A stretch of 37,180 nucleotides of DNA. Origin: Methylotenera sp. (GTDB lineage: Bacteria; Pseudomonadota; Gammaproteobacteria; Burkholderiales; Methylophilaceae). The first letter of the stretch is position 1, and every line of letters begins with the position of its first letter. The notes under the pieces are model-generated. The model was given only the letters and a program-made list of their open reading frames with translations. It was not told where the DNA came from and did no database searches. The translations under genes and the position numbers were made by a program. The DNA is taken from positions 1-37,180 of the forward strand of contig JAURWJ010000128.1 in NCBI GenBank assembly GCA_030655015.1. The letters run 5' to 3'. Positions 4,337 to 25,357 of the stretch are shown here, in pieces.

Positions 4337-4436
4337 GGTTTTAATACTCACAAGCTGCTTGAGTTTACCGCTATTATACAAAGCTACCAGTTAAATATTT
4401 TTTTGTAAAAAGTTTTAAACCAGTTGGCTTCCTTTG

Positions 4437-5084
4437 TTACTTTTTTGCGGGTGTTGCCGCTCTAGCCTTATCGGCACGGATATTTGTAATGATGTAGTCT
4501 GCTGTTTTTAAAGCGGCATCATTGTTGCCAGCCATGGTGCTAGAGGTAATGAATTGACCATTGATGATTAGGCTAGGTACGCCTGTTGCACCTGATGCGC
4601 GAAAGATGTTCGCTGCACGGTTTAAGCTGGTATTAGTAGAAAAAGATCCGAAAGCTTCTTCAACTTTCTTTTTATCTAAACCAGCTTGCTTGGTTACCCA
4701 GTCAATCGCTGCTTTTTCATCCGTTGGTTTGAGTGTTTTTTTTGTGTGAATGGCTTCAAATAATGGTGCGTGTAGTTTTTCTAAAACACCCAAAGTTTCC
4801 ATTGCATAATAAGTTTTTGCCATTGGCGCCCATGCTTGATGCGGCAAGCCAGGTACACGCTTAAATACTACATCAGCGGGTAATTTTTTAACCCATGTAT
4901 TTAATGAGGATTCCATTTGGTGGCAATGACCGCAGCCGTACCAAAACAGTTCGATCACTTCGATTTTATTGGGGGTGTCGGAGGTGATGACTTGAGCCGT
5001 TTTATCAAAATCTTTACCCAGTTGTGGGTCTGCCATCACATTGAATGAGGCAAGTAACATTAAAGCCGTTAATAATTTCTTCAT
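4437..5084 (-). CDS. dsbA: Thiol:disulfide interchange protein DsbA/DsbL type
   Basis: The 215-residue exported thioredoxin-fold protein has a signal peptide MKKLLTALMLLASFNVMA, cleaved before DPQ. The active site is C51-G-H-C54 in FWYGCGHCHQ and the cis-proline loop is GATGVPSLII. E. coli DsbA has CPHC; CGHC is common in betaproteobacterial DsbA. It introduces disulfides into periplasmic proteins and needs DsbB, which is not in this window. A helical insert (about 85-150) matches the family. AAGGA lies 10 nt upstream of the ATG. The SPOR-domain gene lies just upstream in the same direction. Mature exported proteins of the nearby amyloid operon contain no cysteine, so they would not be DsbA substrates. 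Confidence 0.92.
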   Translation of the reverse strand: MKKLLTALMLLASFNVMADPQLGKDFDKTAQVITSDTPNKIEVIELFWYGCGHCHQMESSLNTWVKKLPADVVFKRVPGLPHQAWAPMAKTYYAMETLGVLEKLHAPLFEAIHTKKTLKPTDEKAAIDWVTKQAGLDKKKVEEAFGSFSTNTSLNRAANIFRASGATGVPSLIINGQFITSSTMAGNNDAALKTADYIITNIRADKARAATPAKK

Positions 5085-5208
5085 TGATATTTTTCCTTGG
5101 TTTAAGTGATGCTTCAGATTTGCCTATCTAAAACGAATGATGTTGAATTTGGCTGACATCAGTTTTGTTAATAATAATAGCGTTACTCACAGTTGACCAG
5201 AATTTTGG

Positions 5209-5811
5209 CTATTGGTTTTCATTATTCACTTTAATCAGGTCAGCTTTAAAGCCGTTGCTGGTTAATTCAGTTTTTGTTTTGTTGATTTGATCTAAATTAT
5301 CTAAAGGCCCAACACGCACACGGTGCAAAATGCCTTTATTCGGAATAGCCGCCGTTTGTACCAACGCCTCAAAACCTAGCAACGCTAATTTAGCTTTCAT
5401 ATTGTCGGCATCTTCTTCTGTTGCAAAAGCACCCACTTGTAAAAAGTAACTGCTTGGTATGATCGTTTGAGGCTCTTCTTTAATTTCGATTTCTTCAGGC
5501 GCTACTTTGCGCTCGGTTCCGGGCAAAATGGTGTAAAAATCAAAGCGCGTTTTATCATCTTCGTTATCCACCTGATTGTTATTAGCATCAACTTGTTTTT
5601 TTGCATTTTCTGCGATTTTTTCTGCGATTGGTTTAGCCGGTTTATCCAAGCTGGTAAAGGGGCTATCAATCCCGTTGATATACATAACGACCGCCAGTGA
5701 TGCGGCTACGCCTAATAAAACCCCTACTAATAATCCAGAAAAAAATGGACTGCCATTGCTGGCTCTTTTAGTACGTTCAGGGCTTGGTTTGTAATCTCTA
5801 CTCATATTCAT
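5209..5811 (-). CDS. SPOR-domain membrane protein (FtsN-like)
   Basis: The 200-residue protein has a short basic N-terminus, one transmembrane helix at about 24-46 (FSGLLVGVLLGVAASLAVVM) and a charged periplasmic linker. A C-terminal SPOR domain starts at SYFLQVGAFATEEDA and ends at the last residues. SPOR domains bind denuded septal peptidoglycan, and the layout (in/TM/linker/SPOR) is that of FtsN-type division proteins. The argS-SPOR gene pair is common in betaproteobacteria, and the two genes here are 26 bp apart. AAGGA sits 4 nt before the ATG. Calling it FtsN outright would need the essential FtsA/FtsQLB-interacting segments, which I cannot confirm. Confidence 0.88.
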   Translation of the reverse strand: MNMSRDYKPSPERTKRASNGSPFFSGLLVGVLLGVAASLAVVMYINGIDSPFTSLDKPAKPIAEKIAENAKKQVDANNNQVDNEDDKTRFDFYTILPGTERKVAPEEIEIKEEPQTIIPSSYFLQVGAFATEEDADNMKAKLALLGFEALVQTAAIPNKGILHRVRVGPLDNLDQINKTKTELTSNGFKADLIKVNNENQ

Positions 5812-5837
5812 GTAATCCTTATTTTTTTAAAGCTAGC

Positions 5838-7496
5838 CTACATTTTATTCGGGGCGCTGACGCCCAGTAAATCCAGGCCATTTTTAAGCACTTGTTGCGT
5901 GGCGCAGATTAAGCTCAAGCGTGCCAGTTTCAGCGCTTCGTCATCAATTAAAAATTTATATTCGTTATAGTAGCTGTGCAAGTCGCTGGCTAACTCTTTT
6001 AAGTAGTTAGCAATCACATGCGGTGCAAGCTCAGTGGCTGCATTGGCAACCACCTCTGGGTATTCGCTCAGGCGTTGCATCAGCGCGGTTTCATGTGCGT
6101 TATTAAGTGGGCTTAAATCTACATGGATTAAGCTTGCCGTATCGCCATTCCATTGGCTCAACACGCTACAAATACGCGCATGCGCATATTGAATATAATA
6201 AACCGGGTTATCGTTGCTTTGACTACGGGCTAAATCAATATCAAACACCAATTGCGAATCCGCACGGCGTGCTGCCAGAAAATATCTGGTAGCGTCACAA
6301 CCGACTTCTTCAATCAAATCACGCAGGGTCACATAGCTACCTGCACGTTTGGATAGTTTGACTTCTTCTCCGCCACGCATGACAGTGACCATTTGATGCA
6401 ATACATAATCAGGCCAGCCTTGAGGAATGCCAATATCTAAAGCCTGCAAACCAGCGCGAACACGGGTAATCGTGCTGTGATGGTCGGCGCCCTGCTCGTT
6501 AATGACGCGCACAAAGCCGCGATTCCATTTATCGGTATGGTAGGCAATATCAGGCACAAAATAAGTGTAGCCACCATCGGTTTTACGCATGACGCGGTCT
6601 TTGTCATCGCCAAAGTCGGTAGTTTTGAGCCAAAGCGCTTGATGTTCTTCGTAAGTATGGCCGCGGTTGATGAGTGCTTGCACCGTTTGTTCAACATGGC
6701 CGGTGGTATAAAGCGCACTTTCGAGTGAAAACACGTCAAATTTAATTTGAAACGCTTTTAAGTCTAAATCTTGCTCGTGGCGTAAATACGCTACGCTAAA
6801 GGTGCGAATTGATTCTAAATCGTTAATATCACCGCTGGCAGTGACTTCAATATCATCGGCGATTACCGTGTGTTTGGTCAGAAAAGCCGCCGCAATATCA
6901 TTGATATATTCGCCACGGTAACCGTTTTCTGGAAAGCTCACATGGTCAGTCGAGATGCCCTTGCATCGCGCCAAAACAGAAATGGTGAGGTTATCAATTT
7001 GCGCACCGGCATCGTTGTAATAAAACTCACGCGTCACATCCCAGCCATTTGCATCTAACAAACGCGCTAAACAATCCCCTACTGCCGCGCCACGCCCGTG
7101 CCCTACATGTAAAGGCCCAGTCGGGTTGGCAGATACAAACTCTACCTGCACCTTTTGTTTATTGCCGATGGTATTGCGCCCATATAGGCTAGCTGTTTTG
7201 AGTACTTCTTTAATCACCACTTGTTTAGATTGCGGACTCAAAAAGAAATTGATAAAACCCGCCCCCGCGATTTCAGTTTTAGCCACATATTCGCTGACTG
7301 GGAGGGCTTCAATAATCTGAGTAGCAATCGCACGTGGGTTTTGTTTAAGCGGTTTGGCCAAAACTAGTGCTAAATTTGTGGCAAAATCGCCATGGTCTGC
7401 AGATTTTGGGCGTTCTAATAAAATGTTTAAGTCAGCAACGTCAGGCGCAATAGTTTTTGCGGCGGCGGCCAATAATTGGGTAAGATGTGTTTTCAC
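5838..7496 (-). CDS. argS: Arginyl-tRNA synthetase
   Basis: This class I aminoacyl-tRNA synthetase has the HIGH-type motif HVGH in [12 protein letters not shown], a KMSKS-type KLSKR in [20 protein letters not shown], and the C-terminal anticodon-binding DALR-type helices ending [13 protein letters not shown]. The longest frame would start at 7586. However, its extra 30 codons (7497-7586) are built largely from a 19-bp perfect inverted repeat and do not resemble the family. I prefer the GTG at 7496, giving 552 residues and VKTHLTQLL, the usual ArgS beginning. No strong Shine-Dalgarno is visible for either start. It is divergent from priA and is followed by the SPOR gene. Confidence 0.92.
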
Positions 7497-10134: not shown

Positions 10135-11064
10135 TTAGAACAACCCATTTTGCGGCAAGATTTTTAGACCTTGCAAGGCGGCAAAAGCACCGGCAGAGCC
10201 AACCCCACTTGCACTATTTAAACCAATATGCATCGTAATATTGTTGTGAATCTGGTTAAGGTCACCGCCGATACGTGCTGCCTGGAACATGCCCTGATTG
10301 CGGATCTGCTGTAATACATCCCCTTGTCCGGGGACAACAACACTGACCCCGATACTGTTGTTAGAGAGTGTTACCGTGGCAACGGTGCCATCATTTCCGT
10401 TCGCAGATACTGAACCAGCGTGACCTTGTACCGCACTAGAAACTAAGCCGCCAGCCTGTGCTGATGACGAGATATTAACCTGCATATCAATACCGTTATT
10501 AATGCTGTTAGATTGCCCAGCCACCTGAATACTTTGAGAAACGCCACTCACGTTGGCTAACCCCGCGCCACCGCTCACAGAATTAGTTCCACCATTTTGC
10601 GCTGAAGCCGTATCTTGCCCTTGCGATACGATGGTAACGGTAGGCACATATTGCACGGTTGGTGTACTGCCATTACCTCGAAAATCGATATTAAGATTAG
10701 CGCCCGCAGTCACCAGATTACCGGTTGGTGTTTGCCATTGGCTCACCATTTCTATGCCAAAATACATGACCTGATTATTGCTGGCAAACTTGCCGCGCAT
10801 GTGGCCCAAATCACTATCAGACACCTCTTGCATGTTGTTGAATATGTCAACGTCAGGAGGCAATGCGGCATTGGCCATTGGTGAAAAAGCAATAATGCCG
10901 GCAAGTGCTAACGCTAACTTTTTCGGGCGATTTCTAATATTCTTGTTTACGTGTTTTTGGCTAAGTTGGGTCTTTATCTCAGGTTTTGACGCCAAAGCCA
11001 GTTGACGTAAATACTGTGCATGTTGAATCGAATTTATCGTTAAAGTCCTGGTTGAAATAATCAT
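10135..11064 (-). CDS. Exported FapE-like protein, last gene of the amyloid operon
   Basis: The 309-residue protein's ATG has an ideal AAGGAGG seven bases upstream, so the long N-terminus is real. About 46 polar/basic residues precede a signal-peptide core (KKLALALAGIIAFSPMANA, cleavage near 66). After it comes VSDSDLGHMRGKF (82-93), then NQVMYFGIEMVSQW and a Thr/Ser/Asn/Gly-rich body. Residues 174-196 (GVSQSIQVAGQSNSINN...) and 265-279 (IGGDLNQIHNNITMHI) echo the G-x3-V-N-x2-AG-x2-N core of the FapC repeats. Its position right after the peptidase gene matches fapE, a minor fibril component in Pseudomonas. No cysteine is present, whereas Pseudomonas Fap subunits are described with a CxxC. Assignment as FapE rests on position and these weak motifs. 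The next gene upstream is 164 bp away. Confidence 0.55.
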   Translation of the reverse strand: MIISTRTLTINSIQHAQYLRQLALASKPEIKTQLSQKHVNKNIRNRPKKLALALAGIIAFSPMANAALPPDVDIFNNMQEVSDSDLGHMRGKFASNNQVMYFGIEMVSQWQTPTGNLVTAGANLNIDFRGNGSTPTVQYVPTVTIVSQGQDTASAQNGGTNSVSGGAGLANVSGVSQSIQVAGQSNSINNGIDMQVNISSSAQAGGLVSSAVQGHAGSVSANGNDGTVATVTLSNNSIGVSVVVPGQGDVLQQIRNQGMFQAARIGGDLNQIHNNITMHIGLNSASGVGSAGAFAALQGLKILPQNGLF

Positions 11065-11120
11065 TTTTAAACCTCCTTAAAACACCTAGTGCAGTTAACC
11101 CACCGGGGGTTTTATTGCTG

Positions 11121-11152
11121 TAATGTGGAACTGCCAGCTACGCGCCACATTA
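11121..11152 (-). other. Hairpin in the fapD-fapE intergenic space
   Basis: Perfect 8-bp arms (TAATGTGG / CCACATTA) enclose 16 nt, 57 nt before the fapE-like start. There is no T-run on the minus strand, so it is more likely an mRNA processing or stability structure than a terminator. Confidence 0.4.
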
Positions 11153-11228
11153 AAATTTCAAATAAATTAAGCGTATCCAAATTAAGCTTACTCAAATTAA
11201 TCTTAAATTTACGCAAAGCCAGTCACAC

Positions 11229-11984
11229 TTATAATCCGAGCATGTCAGAACGCACAAAGCCGTAATCAAATAACTCGGCATCGGTTAACGGGCGGTAGTT
11301 GTCCATTAAGGTGCGCGCAGTCAGGCCTTCCTTTGGTCGCAGCAACACTGACTCACGATCAAAGCCCTGCCCAATCACAGCAAATACAATACCGTTCCAG
11401 CTGGCATCAAACTCCTCCCGCTTCATAATGCGGTTACCCAAGGCAGGGTCTGCAATGTAGGCTTTATCGGCAGTGGATTTTCTGAGTACAACAAAATGTT
11501 TATAGCCTTTGTAATTCAGTAACACGATGGTCGGAATGGTGATTTTTTCTAATGTGGCGGGTTGTACGTTATAGCCACGCCCACGCATGCCAATGCTCTG
11601 TGTGTAGTTTTTAATATCCAGTAGTGAAAAGCCTTTTTGACGCACCAACTCCACGTCGCTTACTTTTAACATTCCCTCAATCACCTCTTCTTCAGTCAAG
11701 TTATGGTGATAGGCATAGTTCAGAATGGTCGCCAATGCTGCCGCCCCACAACTAAAATCGGTGTGTTGCTGTACCATATTGACGAACTTCATTTCACGCA
11801 TACTGATGAGATTTTTGCGAATGACTGCGCCCCCGGGCAGAACGTTACCAAACGAGATGTCGGCAGCCTGCACTGGCGAGACTAATGATGCTGAAGTTGG
11901 ATGACCAATATTCGCTGTAACAACGCTCGCAAGTATGACTACCGCAAACGCTAGAATTTTTTTGTGCTTAATGTGGTGTTGCAT
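11229..11984 (-). CDS. fapD: Exported C39-type cysteine peptidase, FapD-like
   Basis: The 251-residue protein has a signal peptide ending PVQA at about 40. The peptidase C39 core shows Q73 and C79 (QHTDFSCGAAALATILNY), H163 (GYKHFVVLRK) and D179 (YIADPALGN). The oxyanion Gln and the Cys-His-Asp triad are therefore all present. Unlike bacteriocin exporters, it has no ABC transporter or membrane domain: a stand-alone periplasmic peptidase, as FapD is in Pseudomonas fap operons, where it sits between fapC and fapE as here. Known C39 enzymes cut after Gly-Gly-like leaders. Four neighbouring exported proteins carry a related D-x-[DEN]-[LFV]-x3-[RS]-G-[KR] or looser motif that could be its target (inference). 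C79 is the only cysteine. GGAAAGAGAG precedes the ATG. A 160-bp gap with a hairpin separates it from fapC. Confidence 0.8.
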   Translation of the reverse strand: MQHHIKHKKILAFAVVILASVVTANIGHPTSASLVSPVQAADISFGNVLPGGAVIRKNLISMREMKFVNMVQQHTDFSCGAAALATILNYAYHHNLTEEEVIEGMLKVSDVELVRQKGFSLLDIKNYTQSIGMRGRGYNVQPATLEKITIPTIVLLNYKGYKHFVVLRKSTADKAYIADPALGNRIMKREEFDASWNGIVFAVIGQGFDRESVLLRPKEGLTARTLMDNYRPLTDAELFDYGFVRSDMLGL

Positions 11985-12061
11985 GGCAACTCTCTTTCCG
12001 CACCTTAATTGTTGCTAAAATTGCTACTAAGTCATTCGATAAAAATAATGTTAAGCGGATA

Positions 12062-12091
12062 AGTCCCAGCCAGAAAACTCTGACCGGGACT
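12062..12091 (-). terminator. Intra-operon hairpin between fapC and fapD (attenuator?)
   Basis: AGTCCC/GGGACT outer arms and a CAGA/TCTG inner stem form an imperfect 13-bp hairpin about 55 nt after the fapC stop codon. No T-run follows on the minus strand, so it is not a classical terminator. A hairpin after a structural-subunit gene often protects the upstream mRNA and lowers expression of the downstream export genes. That role is inferred. Confidence 0.45.
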
Positions 12092-12144
12092 CGTTCAATA
12101 GCCTTTTGAGCTATCTACGCGCGATAGAAACTACTACCGAGAAA

Positions 12145-13398
12145 TTACTCAGTAGGGCCAGGACCGCTACCGCCACCAACACCAGCTTGAGTTGCTGAGA
12201 TTGCTAACCCGTTAAATTGTTGGTTGTTGGTACCTGACGCAATGTTCACACCGATATTGCCAGAGGCATTCATCAGTGCGTTATCACCTAATGTTGAGGT
12301 GTTAGTAGTTGCCAAGTTAACAGCAACCACTACTGGAATATATCCAGACACAGTGCCGGTGAGTGATTGGACACCAGCTTCAACAAAGCCTAGGTGACCA
12401 TGCTCGCTACCTGAGTAGGTGCCGCTATTATTGAATGCTAGCGCACCGCCGTCGTCGTTAAGGTCACTACCACCTTGAGTTTGAGTATCTAAGTCAAAGT
12501 GACCGTCAGCTGAGCCGCCTGGATGTGGAGAGTGTTGCTGGCCAGCAGGAACATTTGCAGCGTCACCAGTCCAGATATCTGGATAAACATCACCGATTTG
12601 ATCTGAAGTGCCAGTAGTCGTGCCAGATGCGCTACCGCTATAGCCGCCGAAACCAAGGCCGAAGTAACCACCACTAGCATTCAAGGCTAGATTAACCGCA
12701 ACATTTTGCACTTCCTCTTCATGAATTGGTGTGTTGTTTGTGGTGTTGCCGCCGTTCAACTGATTAGCTTGCACGGTAGCAGTAGCGATACGTGCCACAG
12801 CGACTGAAGCTGCTAGATCGTTCTTTTGTTGATTATTGTTACCGGCAGAAATATTAACGCCGATGTTGCCAGAGGCATTAGCAAGGCCATTGCCACCTAG
12901 TGTGGCAGCATTGGTGTTGCCTTGGTAGTTAGTGGTATTACCCACTACAGCTTGCGTAGCAAAAATTTCTGCATCAGATGAACCGAATACGAAGCTCGCA
13001 TCAGCGGCAGAGAATGCTGCTGCATTGGCTTGCTGGTTGTTGTCACCTGCGGTAACGTTTACGCCGATATTGCCAGAAGCATTATTGAGTGCATCGCCAT
13101 TAACAGTAGCAGCGTTGGTGACTTCGTTGTTCAGCACATTATTACCGCCGTTAATTTGCTTGTCATCTACGATAGCGGTTGAGCTGGCATCGACATAAGC
13201 AAAGCCGCCTACATATATACGACCTTTAACCTCGATGTCTTGCTCAAAACTAATGTCTTTTTTGATGCTGACGCCGTCATGGTTATTGTGACCACCATTT
13301 GGGCCGTCATTGTTGTTACCTTCTGCAAAAGCGACTGGCGAGATAAATAGTGCAGCCAATGCCAACGCAATTGGGGTTTTATTTAATTGTAATTTCAT
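12145..13398 (-). CDS. fapC: FapC-like major amyloid subunit with three 39-residue repeats
   Basis: The 417-residue secreted protein has a signal peptide MKLQLNKTPIALALAALFISPVAFA cleaved at 25/26, then an Asn/His/Gly-rich segment (26-44). Repeats R1 (94-132), R2 (162-200) and R3 (365-403) all follow TN-x2-T-x2-x-x-AL-x-NASGNIGVN, then a four-residue variable stretch, NNQQ and an Ala-rich tail. Pseudomonas FapC/FapB have three repeats with the same GVN-x3-G-x3-NQQ core, which forms the cross-beta fibril. Linker 1 is 29 residues. Linker 2 is 164 residues, much longer, and Gly/Asp-rich with a DLNDDGG loop that might bind calcium. There is no cysteine at all, so the C-terminal CxxC described for Pseudomonas is missing. 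CGGAG lies 7 nt before the ATG. fapD follows, as in known fap operons. Confidence 0.85.
   Translation of the reverse strand: MKLQLNKTPIALALAALFISPVAFAEGNNNDGPNGGHNNHDGVSIKKDISFEQDIEVKGRIYVGGFAYVDASSTAIVDDKQINGGNNVLNNEVTNAATVNGDALNNASGNIGVNVTAGDNNQQANAAAFSAADASFVFGSSDAEIFATQAVVGNTTNYQGNTNAATLGGNGLANASGNIGVNISAGNNNQQKNDLAASVAVARIATATVQANQLNGGNTTNNTPIHEEEVQNVAVNLALNASGGYFGLGFGGYSGSASGTTTGTSDQIGDVYPDIWTGDAANVPAGQQHSPHPGGSADGHFDLDTQTQGGSDLNDDGGALAFNNSGTYSGSEHGHLGFVEAGVQSLTGTVSGYIPVVVAVNLATTNTSTLGDNALMNASGNIGVNIASGTNNQQFNGLAISATQAGVGGGSGPGPTE
12190..12306 (-). repeat. FapC repeat R3 (residues 365-403)
   Basis: Third amyloid repeat. Core ALMNASGNIGVNIASGTNNQ, followed by QFNGLAISAT. It is separated from R2 by the 164-residue linker and ends 14 residues before the C-terminus (GGGSGPGPTE). 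Confidence 0.85.
12799..12915 (-). repeat. FapC repeat R2 (residues 162-200)
   Basis: Second amyloid repeat. Core GLANASGNIGVNISAGNNNQ, followed by QKNDLAASVA. It is separated from R1 by a 29-residue linker. Confidence 0.85.
13003..13119 (-). repeat. FapC repeat R1 (residues 94-132)
   Basis: First amyloid repeat. Core ALNNASGNIGVNVTAGDNNQ, followed by QANAAAFSAA. It is closest in wording to repeat 1 of the upstream FapB-like protein (AVNMAAGDSNVQANAAA). Confidence 0.85.
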
Positions 13399-13436
13399 GA
13401 TATTCTCCGATTAAGGTTGGTTATAAAACAAAAGAA

Positions 13437-14066
13437 CTACGGTTTCGCACCCAGTTGCACCTGAAGAGCGAAGTTATTGGCCGTACTGTTGCCCGACCCC
13501 GCCGACTGGTTGACCTGAACTAGCCCGTGTGCACCATCAAACGCGGAATCATTGATCGATACCGCTTGGTGACTCTTGCCAGCTCCTGCGCCAGTTGGTA
13601 CTGCATTTGAAGTGGCGGCGGAGAGCACGCTTTCCGCTACCACCTCTTCAAACCCCATGGCAAACGCTGCACCGTTAGCTTGTGCATTTCCTACCCCGCT
13701 GGTTTGGTTGACTGAAATCAAGCCTGAGCTATTTGCAAAGACATTGCCTCCAATAACCGCAGGTGCGAGGTCTGGCAAGTTGCCTTGCCGTAGATCTGTC
13801 ACTTGAATGCCTCCTACCAACCCGATAGCCGAGCCGCCTTGTGCATCCAATGCCACTGCTGCGGCATTTGCCTGGACATTTGAATCTCCTGCTGCCATGT
13901 TCACGGCAAAACGCCCGCGTACATGACTTAAAACGTTGCTATCAATGACACTCTGTGTGACATAGCCGGGTAAATCAGGTAAAGGATCTTGCGCCATTAC
14001 CAAGCTGCTATGTAACACTGCTGGCACCACTAGCAATGTTGAAACTAAAATGGTTGAACCTTTCAT
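13437..14066 (-). CDS. Exported protein with three degenerate amyloid repeats (FapB/FapA-like)
   Basis: The start is placed at the second ATG (14066) because AAGGAG lies 6 nt before it and abuts the first ATG; this gives 209 residues. In the numbering of the longer frame, the signal peptide ends at VMA (27), and VIDSNVLSHVRGRF (42-55) follows. Three 30-residue imperfect repeats lie at 46-75, 110-139 and 176-205, about 65 residues apart. Their shared core is G-x3-VN-x2-[AS]G-x2-N-x2-[AT]N, the same geometry as the FapC repeats but without the invariant NNQQ. The protein ends in an aliphatic strand (FALQVQLGAKP). Position before fapC and repeat content suggest a minor subunit or nucleator such as FapB, or a FapA-like partner. 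The sequence does not decide. No cysteine. Confidence 0.6.
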   Translation of the reverse strand: MKGSTILVSTLLVVPAVLHSSLVMAQDPLPDLPGYVTQSVIDSNVLSHVRGRFAVNMAAGDSNVQANAAAVALDAQGGSAIGLVGGIQVTDLRQGNLPDLAPAVIGGNVFANSSGLISVNQTSGVGNAQANGAAFAMGFEEVVAESVLSAATSNAVPTGAGAGKSHQAVSINDSAFDGAHGLVQVNQSAGSGNSTANNFALQVQLGAKP

Positions 14067-14076
14067 AGCCATCTCC

Positions 14077-14595
14077 TTACTGACCGCTGGTGCGCATCAC
14101 TGCGCCCGCCAAGCCACTTAAAGCACCAGTAGCCCCAGCGATGCCACCAGCCATTTGACCAGTTGCGCCTCCTACCGTGCCGGTGAGTGTTGATCCGAGC
14201 GATTGAATTGAACCGCCGCCAGTACTGTTCAGACCATGCCCACCAACCGTTACATTTGATAACCCCATCGCATTCGTCGCGTTAGTCACTACCCCTAAGC
14301 CCTGTGGTGTGTCAGTAGAAATATTGGCAAACTCGCTATCACCTATCTCCATAGATTTAAGGCTAGTTTGCTGACCATTGACAGCTTGTTTCACTTTGTC
14401 ATCAGGTGAAACATCAATAGAAGTAGCGCGTCCAGGACTGCCTTCACGAATAGCATGGCGAACGGGAACATCACGCTGCAACACTACAGTGCCATCACCC
14501 GCCATGAGCGGTGTGGCATACAGCCCTTCCAGCGCAACAAATAATGCGGCTGGAATCGCTGCGTTCATTTTATGTTTATACATGTCTCTATTCAT
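14077..14595 (-). CDS. Exported Gly/Thr-rich protein of unknown function, operon gene 2
   Basis: I do not recognise this family. The first ATG (14613) overlaps the previous stop codon as ATGA but has no Shine-Dalgarno. The ATG at 14595 has GGAGA six bases upstream and gives 172 residues, with a signal peptide ending at PLMA before GDGTVVLQRDV. The middle has MEIGDSEFANISTD, resembling the motif found at the same place in the neighbouring exported proteins. The C-terminal third is Gly/Ala/Thr-rich with alternating small and aliphatic residues (SLGSTLTGTVGGATGQMAG, then ALSGLAGAV), which could be membrane-active, a glycine zipper or a disordered linker. No cysteine. Being inside the operon it may be a chaperone, nucleator or surface anchor of the fibre; this is inference. 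Confidence 0.6.
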   Translation of the reverse strand: MNRDMYKHKMNAAIPAALFVALEGLYATPLMAGDGTVVLQRDVPVRHAIREGSPGRATSIDVSPDDKVKQAVNGQQTSLKSMEIGDSEFANISTDTPQGLGVVTNATNAMGLSNVTVGGHGLNSTGGGSIQSLGSTLTGTVGGATGQMAGGIAGATGALSGLAGAVMRTSGQ

Positions 14596-14609
14596 CGTAT
14601 GTCTCCATC

Positions 14610-14987
14610 TCATCGTTGGTTAATGGTCAGATTGACGTTCTGGAAACCATGACGCCCGCTAACGTCATTATTTGTAGTGCGCTGATTATCGCTTCCACGT
14701 TCATCCCAAAGAATGACTGCCAGCCTCTCGTTGTCGCCCAAGTTTTCTGCTATACCGCCTTTACCGCTGATGACTGACAAATCAATATCCGTCATCGGTT
14801 CTGCTTGATTCCCCGTAGTTTGATTGCTGATCAAAGACAGAGACTCTAAATCTTCAACTAACCCAGAAAGCGGGTCAGCAAGCGCGGAAGTCGAACAGCA
14901 CATTCCGATTACCCCTAACATGCAACCAACGAACCGTAGTCCGTTTAATCCGTTATTAACGGATTGATGTTTAGTCAACCAGTCCAT
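14610..14987 (-). CDS. Small exported protein of unknown function, first gene of the amyloid operon
   Basis: The start is set at ATG 14987, nine bases after AAGGAG. The longer frame from a GTG at 15008 would bury that Shine-Dalgarno. The product has 125 residues: a signal peptide with core LRFVGCMLGVIGMCCSTSALA, then DPLSGLVEDLESLSLISNQ, then MTDIDLSVISGKGGIAEN. The latter resembles both the GG-type leader shape (D-x-x-L-x3-SGK) and the SGQ/SGKxGI segment of several proteobacterial surface proteins. The rest (ERLAVILWDERGSDNQR, ending in NLTINQR) is polar with short strands. Mature protein has no cysteine. First in the sigma-54 operon, 63 nt of leader. It occupies the fapA position, but I see no decisive similarity to FapA. 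Confidence 0.6.
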   Translation of the reverse strand: MDWLTKHQSVNNGLNGLRFVGCMLGVIGMCCSTSALADPLSGLVEDLESLSLISNQTTGNQAEPMTDIDLSVISGKGGIAENLGDNERLAVILWDERGSDNQRTTNNDVSGRHGFQNVNLTINQR

Positions 14988-15061
14988 GCTACTTCGCTCC
15001 TTGCTCACCGACCCTAACTTTATTACCTGATCATTTTTGTTCTTATTGCTGTAATAGTATT

Positions 15062-15077
15062 AGCAACGACTGTGCCA
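15062..15077 (-). promoter_or_regulatory. Sigma-54 (-24/-12) promoter of the amyloid operon
   Basis: On the minus strand the sequence is TGGCACAGTCGTTGCT. It matches the consensus TGGCAC-N5-TTGCW exactly and has the required 10 bases between GG and GC. Transcription should begin near 15050-15052, giving about 63 nt of leader before the ATG at 14987. A sigma-54 activator gene lies just upstream in the same orientation. Confidence 0.85.
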
Positions 15078-15424: not shown

Positions 15425-15508
15425 ATGATCTCAAAGTTTGCCTGAGGTTTGATCTCACTCCCTCTCGCAGGGAGATTTGATTCCAGATTGTTCATCAGGT
15501 TAAATATC

Positions 15509-15633
15509 CCCTCCCCCTTGCAGGGGGAGGGTTAGGGAGGGGGTCGAAACGTGGCAATATTGCTGCTCTATCCCCGTATCGAGTACGGGGCAGGCTCTAC
15601 CCTTCCACACATGAATAATCTGCTTTAGCAGAT
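15509..15633. repeat. Cluster of three short palindromes
   Basis: CCCTCCCCC/GGGGGAGGG (15509-15531, 5-nt loop) is followed by a GGTTAGGGAGGGGG tail. Next come CCCCGTA/TACGGGG (15572-15590) and ATCTGCT/AGCAGAT (15618-15633). The first two resemble GC-rich intergenic palindromes scattered through many proteobacterial genomes. Any of them could help stop the activator transcript, which ends at 15715. I see nothing else in 15634-15714. Confidence 0.6.
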
Positions 15634-15714: not shown

Positions 15715-17091
15715 TTAAGTGAGGTCGTTAATGCTATCTTGCTTAAAGTCCAACTCGTATTTTTGAATAAGTCTGTACAAGGTCATGCGTGACACTTTAA
15801 GCGCTTGTGCTGCTATTGTCATATTGCCATTATTCTTTTTCAAGGCATTACGAATAACCTCCATTTCTGCCGCATTTCTGGCAGCCTCCAGCGTGGTGAC
15901 TAATCGTTTGCCGTCACGCCGATCAAGGTCAAGATCCTCTGGCGTAATCAGGCGTCGCTCGCACATCACCATGGCACGGCGAACGCGGCTGATAAGCTCG
16001 CGCACATTACCAGGCCATGCGTACTGATTCATGATGCGCAAGGCTGAAGGTGAAAATCCTTTGACGTTGCGCCGTTTTTCGTGGGCAAACTTATCAAAAA
16101 AATACTTAGCCAACACCTCAACATCGCCCTGTCTTTCACGCAGTGCCGGGGTTTTAATTTTGAGTACGTTTAAGCGATAGTAAAGGTCCTCACGAAAACG
16201 TCCCTCTGCAACGGCTGCTTCTAAATCAACGTGGGTTGCAGCCAGCACGCGCACATCTACCGGAATTTGTGAATTACCACCCACCCGCTCAATGGTTTTT
16301 TCCTGCAAAAAGCGCAAAAGATTCACTTGTAATTCAAGTGGCAAATCACCAATCTCATCCAAAAAAATGGTGCCACCGGCAGCCGACTCAATGCGGCCGA
16401 TTTTGCGTTGGCTCGCACCCGTAAACGCGCCCTTTTCGTGCCCGAATAATTCTGATTGAATAAGACCGCTTGGTAGTGAGCCGCAATTCACTGCTACAAA
16501 TGGCATCTTTCGTCTACTTGAGCGCTCATGTAGCGCAAGCGCCGCCAGCTCTTTGCCAGTGCCACTTTCCCCGGTAATCAGCACTGGTGCATCAACCCCC
16601 GCTACTTTGCGTATGTTGCGAAACAATTCCAGCATCTGCGGGCTGGCTCCCACCATTTCGTCCTCACCTATCGGTAGCTCAAGGTCTGTGACCACATCCT
16701 CCCACTTTATTGAAGCCATGCCATGGGCATGACCAAGCGTTGCTAGTAGCCTTTCTGGGGCGGGTGGAAGCGTGTGAAAATCATAAAAGGACTCACTGAT
16801 TACCTGCTTGACATGGCTTTTGCTCATGCAACCTTTGGGTAGCAAAGCGACCCACTCTACAAAATCCACATTACGAAAAAGATTTTCAACCGGCGTAGCC
16901 AGTGAACCGTTTAGTCCATCAAACTGCGCAATGGCGACATGTGGGGTGTATTTGTCGATAATACTGGCTGCACCATCAACATTATTTGTTAATTTTACAT
17001 CCCATCCTGCATCGCACATTTCGCCTACCAGAACGGAAGGTTTATCCGAGGAGTTAAAATAAAGCAAATTATGATTTTCTTTACTGTACAT
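15715..17091 (-). CDS. Sigma-54-dependent activator with VpsR-like N-terminal domain
   Basis: The start is taken at ATG 17091 (AAAGGCGG about 7-10 nt upstream) rather than a TTG ten codons earlier, giving 458 residues. The N-terminal domain (about 1-130) lacks a canonical receiver phospho-acceptor signature but ends with ESFYDFHTLPPAPERLLATLGHAHGMA (positions about 100-126), the signature of the VpsR-type N-terminus. The AAA+ domain has Walker A GESGTGKE (174-181), the sigma-54-contacting GAFTGA loop (221-226) and TIFLDE (241-246), then an R-finger region. A Fis-type HTH (TIAAQALKVSRMTLYRLIQK) ends the protein. VpsR in Vibrio binds c-di-GMP and activates biofilm genes. The GGDEF gene next door and the perfect sigma-54 promoter downstream make this the probable operon activator (inference). 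Confidence 0.88.
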   Translation of the reverse strand: MYSKENHNLLYFNSSDKPSVLVGEMCDAGWDVKLTNNVDGAASIIDKYTPHVAIAQFDGLNGSLATPVENLFRNVDFVEWVALLPKGCMSKSHVKQVISESFYDFHTLPPAPERLLATLGHAHGMASIKWEDVVTDLELPIGEDEMVGASPQMLELFRNIRKVAGVDAPVLITGESGTGKELAALALHERSSRRKMPFVAVNCGSLPSGLIQSELFGHEKGAFTGASQRKIGRIESAAGGTIFLDEIGDLPLELQVNLLRFLQEKTIERVGGNSQIPVDVRVLAATHVDLEAAVAEGRFREDLYYRLNVLKIKTPALRERQGDVEVLAKYFFDKFAHEKRRNVKGFSPSALRIMNQYAWPGNVRELISRVRRAMVMCERRLITPEDLDLDRRDGKRLVTTLEAARNAAEMEVIRNALKKNNGNMTIAAQALKVSRMTLYRLIQKYELDFKQDSINDLT

Positions 17092-17305
17092 AACTAACCG
17101 CCTTTGGTTTTTAATACCCAAAAAACAAATCGCGCAAGTTTATAACTGTATTCGCCACATGCTGCATAAGCAAGCTGCCATAAAGGGTATTAAATTGTTA
17201 TTTCATTAGTATTATTTATAACCATTCGGTCAATTATTTTTATAAAAAAATGGCAAATAGTTAACTTGTCTCACGGGTTGACTCTGCTTAAAAACTACAT
17301 AGCGT

Positions 17306-18808
17306 TCAAACCTTAAAGTGTTGGGTGGGGCTGCCAGTAAATGTCTCTGGTTTAAAAAATCGCAACCTATTGCGCCCAGCCAATTTAGCCTGATACATCG
17401 CAATGTCAGCCTGTTTCTGCAGTTCAGGCACGGTGTAGCGGTGGTCGGTAAAAGTTGTCACCCCAATACTGGCTGTTATGTCATATTCAAGACCTGCCAG
17501 CTGAAATGGCTTGTTGATGGCGGCGAGCATTTTATTGCCAATCACCTCGGCTAAGGCTGCCGCTTCCTGTGGGTTTTCACTCAGGTTTTCTAACATGACC
17601 AAAAATTCATCCCCACCCAAGCGAGCGACCGTGTCACCTTCACGCACGCTAATAGCTAAGCGCTGTGCAACAATTTTCAGCATCAGGTCGCCAGTGTCAT
17701 GCCCCAACGAATCGTTCAGCAATTTGAAATTATCCAAGTCTATGAACATCAACGCACAATGTCTTCTGGTCCGTGCGCTGGTAGCAATGGCTCTATGCAT
17801 TCGGTCTAACAGTAACCGCCGATTGGGCAACCCTGTAAGCGCGTCATAAAATGCCAGTTGCTGTAACTCATCTTCTGCCACTTTGCGCGTTGTAATGTCG
17901 GTGAGCGTTGCAACATAATGTGACACTTCGCCAACTTCATTTTTTACCGCAGTGATGGTGAGCCACACCGGAAATATATCCCCGCACTTTTTGCGGTTCC
18001 ATAGATCACCTTGCCACGTGCCCGTGGCATGAATACCAGACCACATTGCCGCATAAAAATCTTCACCGTGGCGCCCAGACCTCAATAGTCGCGGCGTCTG
18101 TCCCGTGACATCCTGCGCCGTATAACCAGTGATATCGGTAAAGGCATGGTTAACTTTTAATATTACATTGTTGGCATCCGTCACCATCATGCCCTCGCGC
18201 GACTCGAACACCGTAGCCGCCACGCGCAGTTCCTGTTCGGCCTGTTTTATTTCACTGATATCGGTGAGTGCAACACGCATCATCAACGTGCCTGCATCAA
18301 GCCGCGATACATTTTTTGAATCCATCGGCAGGCAATCTAGCCGAGCGTAAAATGTTGTGCCATCCGCACGCTGCATTTTTATATCACAACTTTTATGTTT
18401 ATTCTGTTGCAGGACTTGTTGAAAATGCTGATGCCAATGGTCACTATCTTCATGTGATACAAAGCATAAAAAATGTTGTTTGAGCAGCGCCGCCCTGTTT
18501 TCACCCAACAGTTCGGCACTGATTAGATTAGCCTCGTTAATTACACCATTTTCACTAAGTGTAAGATACCCGACTGGCGCAAACTCATAGAGCGAAACGT
18601 ATCGGTTGAGCGATTCTTCAAGCGATTCTTGAGTACGTCGCAGCTCTTCATTTTGCATCTCTAGCTCAAGCTGGTGCACCTGCAACTCGTGTGATCGTGC
18701 GTCACTATGAGCGTCTGTCACTCCAGTTTCAAGCGCATGCGCTATTTCGTCTTCAGCAGCTTGGCGCAACTTTGGAAGCTGTAACAAGTTCTCTAGTGTT
18801 TTTTTCAT
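17306..18808 (-). CDS. PAS-PAS-GGDEF diguanylate cyclase
   Basis: The start at ATG 18808 is preferred (AGGTG seven bases upstream) over a TTG six codons earlier, giving 500 residues. An N-terminal helix (ELQVHQLELEMQNEELRR) leads into PAS 1 (LYEFAPVGYLTLSENG...) and PAS 2 (VFESREGMMVTDANN ... HYVATLTDITTRK). Then comes a GGDEF domain with intact active site G398-G-D-E-F402 and I-site R389-E-G-D392 five residues before it, so product inhibition by c-di-GMP is likely. No EAL domain and no membrane segment: a soluble sensor cyclase. No haem or flavin ligand can be assigned to the PAS domains. Its sensor half closely resembles that of the LuxR-type protein at 19458-20927. Confidence 0.92.
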   Translation of the reverse strand: MKKTLENLLQLPKLRQAAEDEIAHALETGVTDAHSDARSHELQVHQLELEMQNEELRRTQESLEESLNRYVSLYEFAPVGYLTLSENGVINEANLISAELLGENRAALLKQHFLCFVSHEDSDHWHQHFQQVLQQNKHKSCDIKMQRADGTTFYARLDCLPMDSKNVSRLDAGTLMMRVALTDISEIKQAEQELRVAATVFESREGMMVTDANNVILKVNHAFTDITGYTAQDVTGQTPRLLRSGRHGEDFYAAMWSGIHATGTWQGDLWNRKKCGDIFPVWLTITAVKNEVGEVSHYVATLTDITTRKVAEDELQQLAFYDALTGLPNRRLLLDRMHRAIATSARTRRHCALMFIDLDNFKLLNDSLGHDTGDLMLKIVAQRLAISVREGDTVARLGGDEFLVMLENLSENPQEAAALAEVIGNKMLAAINKPFQLAGLEYDITASIGVTTFTDHRYTVPELQKQADIAMYQAKLAGRNRLRFFKPETFTGSPTQHFKV

Positions 18809-18940
18809 GGTGGCACCTATCAACAATCACTCAGCAACAATTGGCAGACATGGCGGTGCGAGTACAGGCTTACATATAAACAAAGACAACCTTGGCAATG
18901 ATATGAAGGCATGATTTTCCCCGAGATATTGCCAACATTC

Positions 18941-19162
18941 CTACCTCAAGCCGTTTCTGTAGGTTGTCGCCACTGGTTTGGCCTCAGGCTGCGCATCGGC
19001 TTCCAATGATTGGAGTATGTCACCTCCCGACAAAAACCCGCGTTGCTTGGCGTGGTGATAAGCCAGTAAAGCAATCGAGTGTGCATGTTTGTCAGAAAAA
19101 GGCTCCCTATCATCAGCATCGTATTTATTTTTTTTGCTCTTTGTGTCCCATGCATGTCTCAT
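18941..19162 (-). CDS. Small DUF2934-like protein
   Basis: This 73-residue, highly charged protein has AAGGA five bases before its ATG. The central helix (IALLAYHHAKQRGFLSGGDI followed by LQSLEAD) resembles DUF2934, a short proteobacterial domain of unknown function with an I-x2-x-AY-x2-A-x2-RG pattern. No signal peptide or membrane segment. It stands alone between the cyclase gene (133 bp downstream) and the LuxR gene. A duplicated GATCACTG lies just upstream (about 19181-19198). The frame is supported by the Shine-Dalgarno and composition; the family call is tentative. Confidence 0.55.
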   Translation of the reverse strand: MRHAWDTKSKKNKYDADDREPFSDKHAHSIALLAYHHAKQRGFLSGGDILQSLEADAQPEAKPVATTYRNGLR

Positions 19163-19399
19163 TTTAATCCTTTACTAAACGATCACTGATGATCACTGGC
19201 AGAGGGTTTGTCATGCCTCGCAATCAAGCCTTAATCACAACGATGGATAAGGAAACAGAGTGTGCACTCTCCAAATAACTGTCAAATAACAATACACGGG
19301 AGCGTCACACACTAAAAATTTCACAGCTTCATCGTATGCCCATAAAAAAGCACACGCAATTGCAAATAAAGGTAAAGCAAATGGTAAGGAATGGCTATG

Positions 19400-19436
19400 C
19401 CACATAACCATTTTTTATTAATAAATGGTTATGTGG
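19400..19436 (-). terminator. Strong hairpin after the PAS-LuxR gene
   Basis: Perfect 14-bp arms (CCACATAACCATTT and its complement, 19400-19413 and 19423-19436) with a 9-nt A/T loop begin 22 nt after the stop codon at 19458. No T-run follows on the minus strand, so a classical terminator is uncertain. It probably defines the 3' end of the CheBR-LuxR transcript. The rest of 19163-19399 shows nothing I can name. Confidence 0.55.
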
Positions 19437-19457
19437 TGGATGATTTTTTAAGAATGA

Positions 19458-20927
19458 TTAGCTGTGTAACGTAATCAGGTAGCTACGGAGGTTATCTGAT
19501 TTGCTGTTGAGACCGAGCTTTGCGCGAATGTTTTTGCGGTGAATACTGATGGTTTCTGGTGAAAGCGATAAGGTTGCGGCAATGGCTTTAGTGGAAACAC
19601 CCTCACGCACCATGGATGCCACTTGGATTTCTTTGGGCGTTAGGGTTTTATAGACGGATGAAAGACTAGATGCTGAGCCATAAGATGAAATCAGGCGCTG
19701 TAAATTGGCATCCAGTGCGCTTAGCAGACGCACTTGCTTGGGCTCGCGACTACTGCTTTTCAGTCTTTGCAAAAAGGGCATCACTTCTTGTTTCAGTTCA
19801 AGAATGAGTAGATTTTTAGCGTCGCAACTTTCAGATTCTCGCAGCTTGATCATGACTTTTAATGCGGTATTGACTTCCTCGGCCTCAACCTTGGCAAGCG
19901 TCAAGTCGGCAACCGTTTTTTTAACTTGCCGCTCTAAGTGTTTTCGAGCATCCAGCAGTATCTTTTCCGCTTTTTTCTGTACGGAAATATCTAAAAAAGA
20001 ACCCACATAATGTGATATTTTTCCTTCCGCATCATTCACTGCGGTAATGTTCATCAGACTTGGAAATACTTCTCCATTTTTGCGCAGATTCCAAATTTCC
20101 CCTTGCCAGTATTGGTCATGGGTAATGGTGTTAAATATCTCTTGATAAAATACATTGTCATGCTGCCCAGACTTGAGTATTGACGCCGATTTGCCGATTG
20201 TCTCTTCAGCGCTATGGCCTGTAATCCTTGTAAATGCTTTGTTCACGCGAACGATGGTGCTATGTGCATCTGTCACCAACATGGCCTCTTGTACATCGAA
20301 GGCTTTAGCAGCAATGCGCAGCTCTTCTTCGGCTTGCTTGCGCTCGGTGATGTCTGTTAGTGTGATGCGCACAGTAATTGTGCCATCCTTGGTTTTTATA
20401 GGCAGAGCATCCAGATGTACAAAGCGCAACTCGCCATTTTCTCGTTTGATTTGCATGTCACAATTTTTGTGCACATTATGATAAATTATTTGCTTTATAC
20501 AGAGATGAAAATGGTCAACCCAACCTGGCGCGATATGGCGGGAAAAAGGGCGTGACAACAGCTTTTTGCGCTCGCAACCCAGTAGTTCGGCTGCGGTAAA
20601 GTTTACCTCCGCTATCAGACCTGTCGCGGCCAAGGTAAGATAGCCCACAGGCGCGAACTCAAATAAATCTAAATATCGATCACGCGATTCTTCCAATGCA
20701 ATATGCGCGCGCCGCAATTCATCATTTTGCATCTCCAGCTCAATCTGGTGCACCTGAAGTTCATGCAATAACTTATCTGCAGGTGCGGTAACCGCAGTGA
20801 CAGCATTGAGTTGATTAGCCAAGTGCAACTCAGCTTCAGATCTAAGGCTGCGGCGGCGCTCATCAGGCGTCCTTCTTCTCTCTACTTGATCTTTATTGTC
20901 ACTTTTACCTGTTGGAGTATCTCTCAT
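19458..20927 (-). CDS. PAS-PAS sensor with LuxR-type DNA-binding domain
   Basis: The 489-residue protein has a coiled helix with ELQVHQIELEMQNDELRR at about 55-75, PAS 1 (LFEFAPVGYLTLAATG...), PAS 2 (AFDVQEAMLVTDAHS ... HYVGSFLDIS), a long helix (about 310-400) and a C-terminal LuxR/GerE HTH (LTPKEIQVASMVREGVSTKA, about 427-485). There is no receiver domain, so the signal must enter through PAS. The ATG overlaps the stop codon of the CheB-CheR gene (ATGA) and has GGAGG four bases upstream, so the two are translationally coupled. Such CheB/CheR-PAS plus PAS-LuxR pairs occur in other proteobacteria with no known target. The sensor half is a paralogue of that in the GGDEF protein nearby. Confidence 0.9.
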   Translation of the reverse strand: MRDTPTGKSDNKDQVERRRTPDERRRSLRSEAELHLANQLNAVTAVTAPADKLLHELQVHQIELEMQNDELRRAHIALEESRDRYLDLFEFAPVGYLTLAATGLIAEVNFTAAELLGCERKKLLSRPFSRHIAPGWVDHFHLCIKQIIYHNVHKNCDMQIKRENGELRFVHLDALPIKTKDGTITVRITLTDITERKQAEEELRIAAKAFDVQEAMLVTDAHSTIVRVNKAFTRITGHSAEETIGKSASILKSGQHDNVFYQEIFNTITHDQYWQGEIWNLRKNGEVFPSLMNITAVNDAEGKISHYVGSFLDISVQKKAEKILLDARKHLERQVKKTVADLTLAKVEAEEVNTALKVMIKLRESESCDAKNLLILELKQEVMPFLQRLKSSSREPKQVRLLSALDANLQRLISSYGSASSLSSVYKTLTPKEIQVASMVREGVSTKAIAATLSLSPETISIHRKNIRAKLGLNSKSDNLRSYLITLHS

Positions 20928-24073: not shown

Positions 24074-25357
24074 TTAGAAGTTATACGGGAACTTAATGCC
24101 CACCGTCACGTCTGGTGCATCTGGTGTGACACCCATGCCGACGTTGGCCACCATTGAAAGCTTGTCAGACATGGCATAAGTGATGCCAAAGTTAAGCGAG
24201 CCAGCACTGGCATCGCTACCGGTGACGCTATTCCATCCTTGCCCCGCTTGTTTAATACGCGCTTTATGTGAAAAGCGGTGCGCATAAGACATGCTAGTAC
24301 TCATGCGATCACTCAATGCAAAGGCAAAGCCACCACCTAACTGGTATGAATCGCCCAAATCAATCTCGCCCGAAACTTTATCGCCAGGGGTCCCGCTAAT
24401 ATCACTAAATTTGCGTGAGAAATTGTGAGAATAGCCAATATTTGCGAACAAAATGGCTGGGTCTATTGTTTTAACAAAAGTTAATCCAGTAGAAAGTGAC
24501 CATAAGCCATTTCCCGTTGGAAGGTCATTAGGCGCAGAAACATCACCAACCTTTGTAAACTTGATACCATAAGGGTCCTTACCCGTTGGCGCTTTTACAC
24601 GGACATTTAAAACAATATCTGGGCTTGTCGGTGTTTCTGGGAACAGGCGGTAATAGGCGCCTGCGCTTACATCGCCGATGTCAGCATTGCTCACATCACG
24701 CTCACCCAATGTTGAAGCGCTTCCACCTACTCCGCTGGATTCAAAAGTTGAATTGCGGTAAAGAAACGGTGCATTAAAGTCAAATTGCAAACGGTCTGTC
24801 ACGCCATAGCGCCCTGTCACATCCAGTTGCACAATGTCAGATTTAATGCGGTCTAGTTTGATGTTGCCTAGAAAAATTGCATCTAAAGCCAAAAAGCCTT
24901 CCAACGTTAGTTGGCGACGATCAGAGTGACTATAACTTATACCTGTTTCCAGTGTAAAAGTCTTATTAAACAATGCGTTTTGCTCACGATAAACCGCCTC
25001 AGCGCTACGCGATGCCGGCGCTTCTTTCACAACAGGCTCATTGGTCACTTGTTCCGGCCGGCTTTCATCGCTGGTCGTTTGAGTGGTGCTGGTGTCAGCC
25101 GCGACTACCGTTTTATTCACGGCATGCATCGGCCTCGCCTGCCCCTGACCTGAGTTTTCGAGCTGCTGCAACCTTTGTGCCAAAGATTGCAAGGTAGCGC
25201 TTTGCGCTTCGTAGCGATTGTTTAATTCACCAAGCTGTTTGCGCAACTCCGCCACATCTTGTGCATCTGTGGCTGGGTCAGCCGCCCAAACGTTGGATGA
25301 GAGGCAGGTAGCCACCGCTAACGCAACGCCGCTTAATTTAAAAAAGTGGTTATTCAT
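24074..25357 (-). CDS. fapF: FapF-like outer-membrane amyloid secretion channel
   Basis: The 427-residue protein has a signal peptide ending SNVWA at 25 and a coiled coil at about 33-68 (VAELRKQLGELNNRYEAQ, then LAQRLQQLEN). A polar linker (69-118) and a short helix (AVYREQNALF) come before a beta barrel from about 132 that ends in Phe (IKFPYNF), the usual outer-membrane signature. Signal-coiled coil-linker-plug helix-barrel is the architecture of FapF, and LEGFLALDAIFLGNI with GRYGVTDRLQFDFNAPFLYR is the kind of sequence found in FapF barrels. FapF exports Fap subunits in Pseudomonas. Here the gene is alone, with its own terminator and a 480-bp upstream region, 9 kb from fapE. Other 'transporter' family barrels share parts of this pattern, but the coiled coil favours FapF. 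No cysteine in the mature part. Confidence 0.72.
   Translation of the reverse strand: MNNHFFKLSGVALAVATCLSSNVWAADPATDAQDVAELRKQLGELNNRYEAQSATLQSLAQRLQQLENSGQGQARPMHAVNKTVVAADTSTTQTTSDESRPEQVTNEPVVKEAPASRSAEAVYREQNALFNKTFTLETGISYSHSDRRQLTLEGFLALDAIFLGNIKLDRIKSDIVQLDVTGRYGVTDRLQFDFNAPFLYRNSTFESSGVGGSASTLGERDVSNADIGDVSAGAYYRLFPETPTSPDIVLNVRVKAPTGKDPYGIKFTKVGDVSAPNDLPTGNGLWSLSTGLTFVKTIDPAILFANIGYSHNFSRKFSDISGTPGDKVSGEIDLGDSYQLGGGFAFALSDRMSTSMSYAHRFSHKARIKQAGQGWNSVTGSDASAGSLNFGITYAMSDKLSMVANVGMGVTPDAPDVTVGIKFPYNF

Follow-up and report, generated by a model that had tools for sequence, protein, structure and literature searches.

A Fap functional-amyloid locus of Methylotenera with an additional first gene, fapX, and a C39 leader-like motif in FapE and FapX

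Results

Gene content of the fap locus

We analyzed a 37,180-nucleotide stretch of DNA from Methylotenera sp. (contig JAURWJ010000128.1, hereafter the window) that contains genes for Fap, a functional-amyloid system. In the list of open reading frames (ORFs) of the window, six closely consecutive minus-strand ORFs fill positions 10135-15008 and encode, in the order of the minus strand, FapX-FapA-FapB-FapC-FapD-FapE; fapF lies apart, upstream of them (Table 1). The name fapX was coined in this analysis. The fapX and fapA genes overlap by 4 bases, and a hydrophobic N-terminal stretch can be seen by eye in each of the six products. An earlier sequence-only reading, which had described six consecutive genes with signal peptides forming a betaproteobacterial Fap system, is thus borne out, with Fap profile matches obtained for FapA to FapF. 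As judged from its genes, the window encodes a complete Fap system of Methylotenera.

The profile search against Fap families that this reading had proposed was carried out: the repeats match the FapB and FapC profiles, and the product of 11229-11984 matches FapD. NCBIfam names five of the six operon ORFs, FapC alone exceeding NCBI's curated cut-off, and the only above-cut-off Pfam match among the six is that of FapD to the C39 peptidase family. The three-repeat FapC-like protein, the stand-alone C39 peptidase with a full triad and the FapE-like last gene had therefore been recognized correctly. Of the two small exported proteins at the head of the operon that the reading had left without a family, the first, FapX, indeed belongs to none, but the second is FapA.

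The gene set had also been described as altered. It does contain one true extra gene, fapX, but the remaining differences are mostly ordinary for Fap. The repeats of FapB are generally less conserved than those of FapC (PMC3792158), so their degeneration sets the window apart little. The FapC repeat cores (NASGNIGVN..GxNNQQ) start at residues 106, 174 and 377, and the second linker is long, as had been noted; however, according to PMC3792158, the size and linkers of FapC vary widely. Similar repeat spacing occurs in four other Methylotenera loci, two of which are one contig's neighbors or near kin. The detached fapF was located, and separation of this gene is a common deviation: the same source reports Fap systems from Beta-, Gamma- and Deltaproteobacteria, with fapA absent in 6 of 16 genera and fapF separated in 4 of 16. 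The window does not have the single-operon fapABCDEF order, yet its membership in Fap stands, because a detached fapF has been reported elsewhere in the family. FapE has a ~45-residue extension ahead of its signal peptide (10922-11064), which resembles an extended signal peptide region and is partly common to other Methylotenera (SIQHAQYLRQL).

Loci for comparison were obtained by a FapD scan of a genome collection described as covering 84,980 species. The scan returned 543 relatives, of which the best 80, representing 79 loci, were kept; among these the closest named records are from Methylotenera. Together with the window and three further loci they make a set of 83, three duplicates included (L016, L017 and L018 repeat the contigs of L021, L023 and L070). 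The duplicates were dropped from within-locus rankings and from counts of distinct sequences, and were kept in the count of FapX-bearing loci. Loci L025, L026 and L050 are cut by contig ends. Within the genus Fap is patchy, with FapD-like matches in 3 of 25 genomes, that of the window counted.

Table 1. Coordinates of the fap genes, motifs and regulatory features in the window.
Feature	Position	Strand	Remarks
Candidate regulator, sigma-54 activator with VpsR domain	15715..17121	-	PF00158, E 1.6e-71; PF20161, E 3.9e-16
sigma-54 type -24/-12 promoter TGGCACAGTCGTTGCT	15062..15077	-	sequence pattern, just upstream of fapX
fapX	14610..15008	-	132 aa, exported; GTG start, in-frame ATG at 14987
FapX leader-like motif, residues 71-83 PMTDIDLSVISGK	14760..14798	-	invariant Leu, Gly at least 90% conserved in 45 distinct FapX
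FapX LWDE core, residues 100-103	14700..14711	-	invariant in 45 distinct FapX
fapA	14077..14613	-	NCBIfam NF058617, 32.7 bits, E 8.3e-8, under cut-off 110
FapA internal leader-like motif, residues 89-101 EIGDSEFANISTD	14311..14349	-	window copy without terminal Gly
fapB, minor amyloid subunit	13437..14072	-	NCBIfam NF058557, 84.9 bits
fapC, major amyloid subunit	12145..13398	-	417 aa; NCBIfam NF058558, 203.2 bits, over cut-off 195
FapC repeat core R1, residues 106-123	13030..13083	-	
FapC repeat core R2, residues 174-191	12826..12879	-	
FapC repeat core R3, residues 377-394	12217..12270	-	
fapD, stand-alone exported C39 peptidase	11229..11984	-	PF03412, E 1.6e-25; NF058616, 297.7 bits
fapE	10135..11064	-	NF058559, 113.6 bits, E 8.3e-33
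FapE leader-like motif, residues 80-92 EVSDSDLGHMRGK	10789..10827	-	motif in 82/82 FapE of the set
fapF, outer-membrane transporter, detached	24074..25357	-	NF058560, 472.9 bits, under cut-off 700

FapX is a widespread member of Fap operons

The FapX set was defined by an iterated profile that was halted early, since later rounds drifted. FapX relatives are present in 48 of the 83 loci (Methylotenera, Halomonas and relatives, Amphritea, Methylophaga and others), a frequency that is not an unbiased estimate, because the best 80 relatives were ranked by likeness to the window FapD. In all 48 the gene lies ahead of fapA or fapB; weak matches were seen in two further Marinobacterium loci. The layouts of the 83 loci are ABCDEF (28), XABCDEF (20), XBCDEF (13), FXABCDE (5, including the window) and others (17). 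When 369 genomes of the class were searched with a four-row FapX profile, eight matches were retrieved, all beside fap genes: five lie within ~4 kb of a FapE match and three were placed by reading ORFs. FapE matches were found in 16 of the 369 genomes.

The window FapX has no NCBIfam match at an E-value of 1 and only a weak, below-cut-off match in Pfam (DUF3789, E 0.0055), and across the 45 distinct FapX each Pfam or NCBIfam family has at most one match at E 0.01. We conclude that fapX is a widespread Fap operon member named in neither database. No published record of FapX, nor of the motif described below as a FapD site, was found in the literature searched, subscription papers and supplements lying outside that search.

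Alignment of the 45 distinct FapX shows that only one Leu of the leader-like motif and the LWDE core are invariant; no member had been discarded for want of LWDE. The part that follows LWDE has a median length of 32 residues, and a G(x)0-2NxQ pattern is present in 28 of the 45 tails, compared with a mean of 4.5 and a maximum of 11 in 500 shuffles. The structure model of the window FapX (predicted local distance difference test, pLDDT, 57) is uninformative, being mostly unstructured apart from two short helices, at 25-35 and 45-50, of which the latter lies at the leader.

Some loci of the set stand out in other respects. Halomonas sp. NO4 carries a tandem second fap gene set; in two Acidiferrobacterales loci fapC precedes fapX rather than following fapB; and one fap operon lies on a contig labeled Bryobacterales, outside the classes reported for Fap, which may reflect mis-binning or transfer.

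FapE, FapX and FapA contain a leader-like motif

The leaders of substrates processed by C39 peptidases of the PCAT type follow the consensus L(-12)xxxE(-8)L(-7)xxxxG(-2)G(-1); position -4 is also important, and a helix spanning -10 to -4 sits in the peptidase groove (PMC6959990). A motif with these anchor positions, which the earlier reading had not noted, is found close to the signal peptide in 82 of 82 FapE (64 distinct stretches), including those of all 24 Pseudomonas/Halopseudomonas loci. Its commonest letters are [EQ][LVI]-S-D-x-E-L-[AG]-x-[LM]-R-G-[RK]-[FY]-V. Among the 64 distinct stretches, D occupies -10 in 59, E or D occupies -8 in 56, L, M or I occupies -4 in 57 (Gln in 5) and F or Y occupies +1 in 63. 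Position -1 is R or K in 64/64, as the search pattern required; since the pattern fixes L/M, R, G/T and R/K, those columns are not independent.

FapX contains a looser form, [LIV]-x-D-x-x-L-x-x-[IV]-R-G-[RKQ], which in the window ends with SGK. Among 44 sequences, 34 have D at -10, 40 have I, V or M at -4, 29 have R at -3 and 39 have R, K or Q at -1, a position held by R, K, Q or T in nearly all FapX. The FapX leader was picked by a rule favoring L and G (one of 49 FapX ORFs, L027, gave no leader), and the conservation alignment of FapX is independent of that rule and of the FapE pattern. In the window, the anchor residues are V81 (-12), L86 (-7), M89 (-4) and G91 (-2) in FapE and M72, L77, I80 and G82 in FapX. 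Position -1 is Lys in both proteins, in place of Gly or another small residue. Because of the Lys/Arg at -1, we do not class FapE and FapX as canonical double-glycine leaders.

We built a 14-column matrix from FapE stretches only and scored 6,213 other ORFs as background. Of the 45 distinct FapX, 35 score at least as high as the 99th background percentile and 24 reach the 99.9th; an earlier matrix built from 58 stretches gave 33 and 16, and a 12-column version gave 28 and 12. The corresponding 99th/99.9th counts are 2/0 of 77 for FapC, 11/8 of 76 for FapB and 9/5 of 57 for FapA. Within loci (median 91 ORFs), FapX ranks first in 24 of 46 and among the top three in 39 of 46, while column-permuted matrices put it first in 0.8 loci on average and in no more than 4 in any of 30 trials. 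Conversely, comparing FapE with the FapX profile gave alignments for 49 of 82 sequences; these cover mainly the same model positions, and their single E-values are weak.

FapA contains an internal motif of a related kind, E-L-[ST]-D-x-[DE]-F-A-x-[IV]-S-S-G, which the pattern failed to match in 5 of 60 FapA. A 10-column FapE matrix (without R-G-[RK]-[FY]) puts 36 of 57 distinct FapA at the 99th percentile of the background. In within-locus rankings, FapA comes first in 24 of 58 loci (permuted matrices: mean 0.9, maximum 11). Most copies have Ser or Thr at -2, and 32 of 47 distinct ones have Gly at -1.

Two other proteins were considered as substrates and rejected. The LSHVRGRF stretch of FapB resembles the motif but is the start of its first Fap repeat and is not conserved in other FapB. 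As for FapC, only 2 of 77 distinct sequences reach the background 1% level, and none of 78 is ranked first.

FapD is a stand-alone C39 peptidase

The catalytic residues Q73, C79, H163 and D179 of FapD are conserved and align with those of C39 peptidases (Cys-His-Asp plus the oxyanion Gln). The protein (251 aa) consists of the C39 domain only; since it is not fused to transmembrane or ATPase domains, it is not a PCAT. In its structure model, which shows a C39 domain, 115 of 251 residues have a pLDDT of at least 90 (mean 75.8), and the closest structures are ComA (3k8u), PCAT1 and LahT with bound leader (6mpz, 33% identity). The columns that separate Fap from sister peptidases include T75/Y and R136/D.

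The catalytic Cys of FapD is required for FapC secretion (PMC5557850). Both PMC5557850 and PMC6173800 state that the FapD substrate is not known; the former calls the target unclear and considers FapE a candidate because of GG/GA motifs, for which it cites its Supplementary Fig. 18, though Fap lacks canonical C39 sequences. Mass spectrometry reported there covered FapA to FapD along their whole length, but for FapE it recovered no peptides from the first ~70 residues.

Sister loci carry the motif with a true Gly-Gly

When the class was searched with the FilB family, 44 places were found, and loci were obtained for 30 of them: 11 Fap-type (the window among them), 13 sister and 6 FilB-like. To these 13 sister loci were added two order-level ones and three from Halomonadaceae with a second peptidase beside Fap, making 18. 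The C39 peptidases of the 13 and the two order-level loci score 176-205 against the Fap FapD profile. In all 18, the gene following the FapD-like protease carries the motif, here ending with R-G-G. Position -4 is hydrophobic in 17 of 18 (Gln in L132). Export of the motif-bearing product is less certain in two loci: in L130 the 49 residues before the motif contain no hydrophobic stretch, and L053 was judged on 25 residues only. In the main locus set, [LM]xx[LIVM]RGG occurs in 18 of 7,536 ORFs, the three Halomonadaceae sister ORFs among them. In the six FilB-like loci, a leader-like motif near the protease gene was seen by eye in three (L125, L126 and L153). At the level of sequence comparison, the sister systems provide the strongest support for the motif as a C39 leader.

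In L053, L057 and L064 (Aidingimonas and Billgrantia; ~1000-6800), the second, non-Fap C39/FapF-like system with Gly-Gly leaders lies only a few kb from fap.

Promoter and regulatory neighbors

Promoters were sought from -600 to +150 relative to the start of the first fap ORF. A sigma-54 pattern was found in this interval in 39 of the 81 loci, compared with ~0.015 expected per 750 bases. It accompanies fapX as the first gene in 35 of 48 loci, fapA in 3 of 29 and fapB in 1 of 4. That the pattern is found mostly at fapX-led loci supports the view that the operon begins with fapX. Expression of fapA in P. fluorescens is driven by BrfA, an enhancer-binding protein that senses cyclic di-guanosine monophosphate (PMC13101488). 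The sigma-54 activator encoded beside the fap operon of the window is a candidate regulator, probably BrfA-like.

Between the activator and fapF, the window has three large PAS-domain signaling genes (17306-23848), of which one ends in a GGDEF-like part as judged by eye, one is PAS-LuxR and one is CheB-CheR-PAS; L016 has them in the same place. In L017 there are no intervening PAS genes and fapF adjoins the activator. Upstream of the fap promoter, at 15450-15545, there is an intergenic C-rich/G-rich inverted element CCTCCCCCTGCAAGGGGGAGG resembling a dispersed repeat.

Discussion

A proposed model for substrate processing by FapD

We infer that FapD likely cuts FapE and FapX at the motif and that the released FapX piece joins or caps the fiber. 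The enhancer-binding protein next door probably activates the sigma-54 promoter of the fap operon, and all six operon products would be exported through Sec. Periplasmic FapD would then recognize the helical leader-like motif near the mature N-terminus of FapE, and its looser form in FapX, and cut at or beside R-G-[RK]. FapA, with its internal motif, may be a bound pseudo-substrate that restrains FapD; binding without cutting is favored because the published Pseudomonas peptides span FapA (PMC5557850), which argues against its cleavage. Processed FapE, plus processed FapX where present, would leave through FapF together with FapB and FapC. The released part of FapX (~50 residues, comprising LWDE and mostly one amyloid-repeat-like turn) may join or cap the fiber; our best guess is a cap or anchor, because the GxNxQ tail resembles a single amyloid-repeat turn.

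Several observations weigh against this model. The C39 cleft is very narrow, which explains double-Gly specificity (PMC6959990); Arg or Lys at -1 does not fit it, unless the cut occurs after R-G or the FapD pocket differs, and by our alignment one of two PCAT1 leader-contact residues corresponds to Lys125 of FapD. Position -8 of FapX is acidic in only 14 of 44 sequences as opposed to 56 of 64 in FapE, though both window proteins have Asp there. When the 10-column matrix is used, 7/45 FapX remain at the 99th percentile and 4/45 at the 99.9th; the resemblance between FapX and FapE is therefore due largely to the R-G-[RK]-[FY] end. The 14-column matrix also places 19 of 84 FapD and 24 of 79 FapF at the 99th percentile (0 and 1 at the 99.9th), and FapB (6/77) and FapF (9/79) can rank first as well, several of the listed FapF stretches lying in an N-terminal coiled-coil region. 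The Ser-Gly at -2/-1 of FapA means that FapA might be cut after all, and the window FapX tail lacks a strict GxNxQ pattern. Finally, FapX is dispensable for Fap in Pseudomonas: the profile search found it in none of the 24 Pseudomonas/Halopseudomonas loci.

That absence would be expected if the operon were an ordinary one in which FapX is an optional minor fiber subunit or chaperone unprocessed by FapD, the motif being shared through ancestry or FapF binding. In keeping with a duplicated N-terminus, it is mainly the leader region of FapE that the FapX profile matches. We nevertheless regard this explanation as unlikely, since the FapE motif fits the published C39 leader at five positions and all 18 neighbors of sister C39 peptidases bear it with a true Gly-Gly. 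It is more doubtful still that the motif is cut by another periplasmic protease preferring basic residues while FapD acts on FapF or elsewhere. R/K before F/Y would indeed be an unusual P1 for a C39 peptidase, and FapF cleavage has been proposed (PMC5557850), but the R/K position is G in the sister systems, beside FapD-like C39 peptidases. A small precursor with a C39-type leader and a short conserved core, whose model is mostly unstructured and of low confidence, could also suggest that FapX is released as a peptide with its own role, in signaling or against competitors, and merely uses the Fap route for export; this we hold to be quite improbable, because all eight FapX matches in the class sample adjoin fap genes and the FapX tail resembles an amyloid turn.

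As a more tentative extension, to which we give slightly less than even weight, Fap, the sister systems and possibly FilB/FilC may be branches of one unrecognized export class. Its members would combine Sec export, C39-type leader removal by a stand-alone periplasmic peptidase and exit through a FapF-like pore; FapE and FapX would be the Fap substrates, FapA would act as a pseudo-substrate, and replacement of G-G by G-R/K at the cleavage site would mark the Fap branch. Because the 13-residue motif has published C39 anchor positions, the question of the FapD substrate can be addressed by point mutation of FapE, in Pseudomonas as well, since the motif is present in FapE of all 24 loci from that group.

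Comparison with known systems

The window resembles the Pseudomonas fapABCDEF system in having FapA to FapF, the B-C-D-E order, three FapC repeats and a stand-alone C39 FapD; it differs in the extra first gene, fapX, and in the position of fapF, 9 kb off beyond regulatory genes. The candidate regulator encoded beside fap is an enhancer-binding protein, as is BrfA of Pseudomonas fluorescens, which acts on the fap operon of that species. With the C39 double-glycine systems (PCAT1/CtA, LahT and ComA), FapD shares the protease fold and catalytic residues, and FapE agrees with their leaders at -12, -8, -7, -4 and -2. Unlike them, FapD is exported and is not fused to an ATP-binding cassette transporter, its proposed substrates have a Sec signal before the leader, and -1 is R/K rather than Gly. 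The FilB/FilC-type systems (NCBIfam 'putative pilus system') likewise combine an exported C39 peptidase with a FapF-like pore, whereas the window FapD scores 115 bits against FilB and 298 against FapD.

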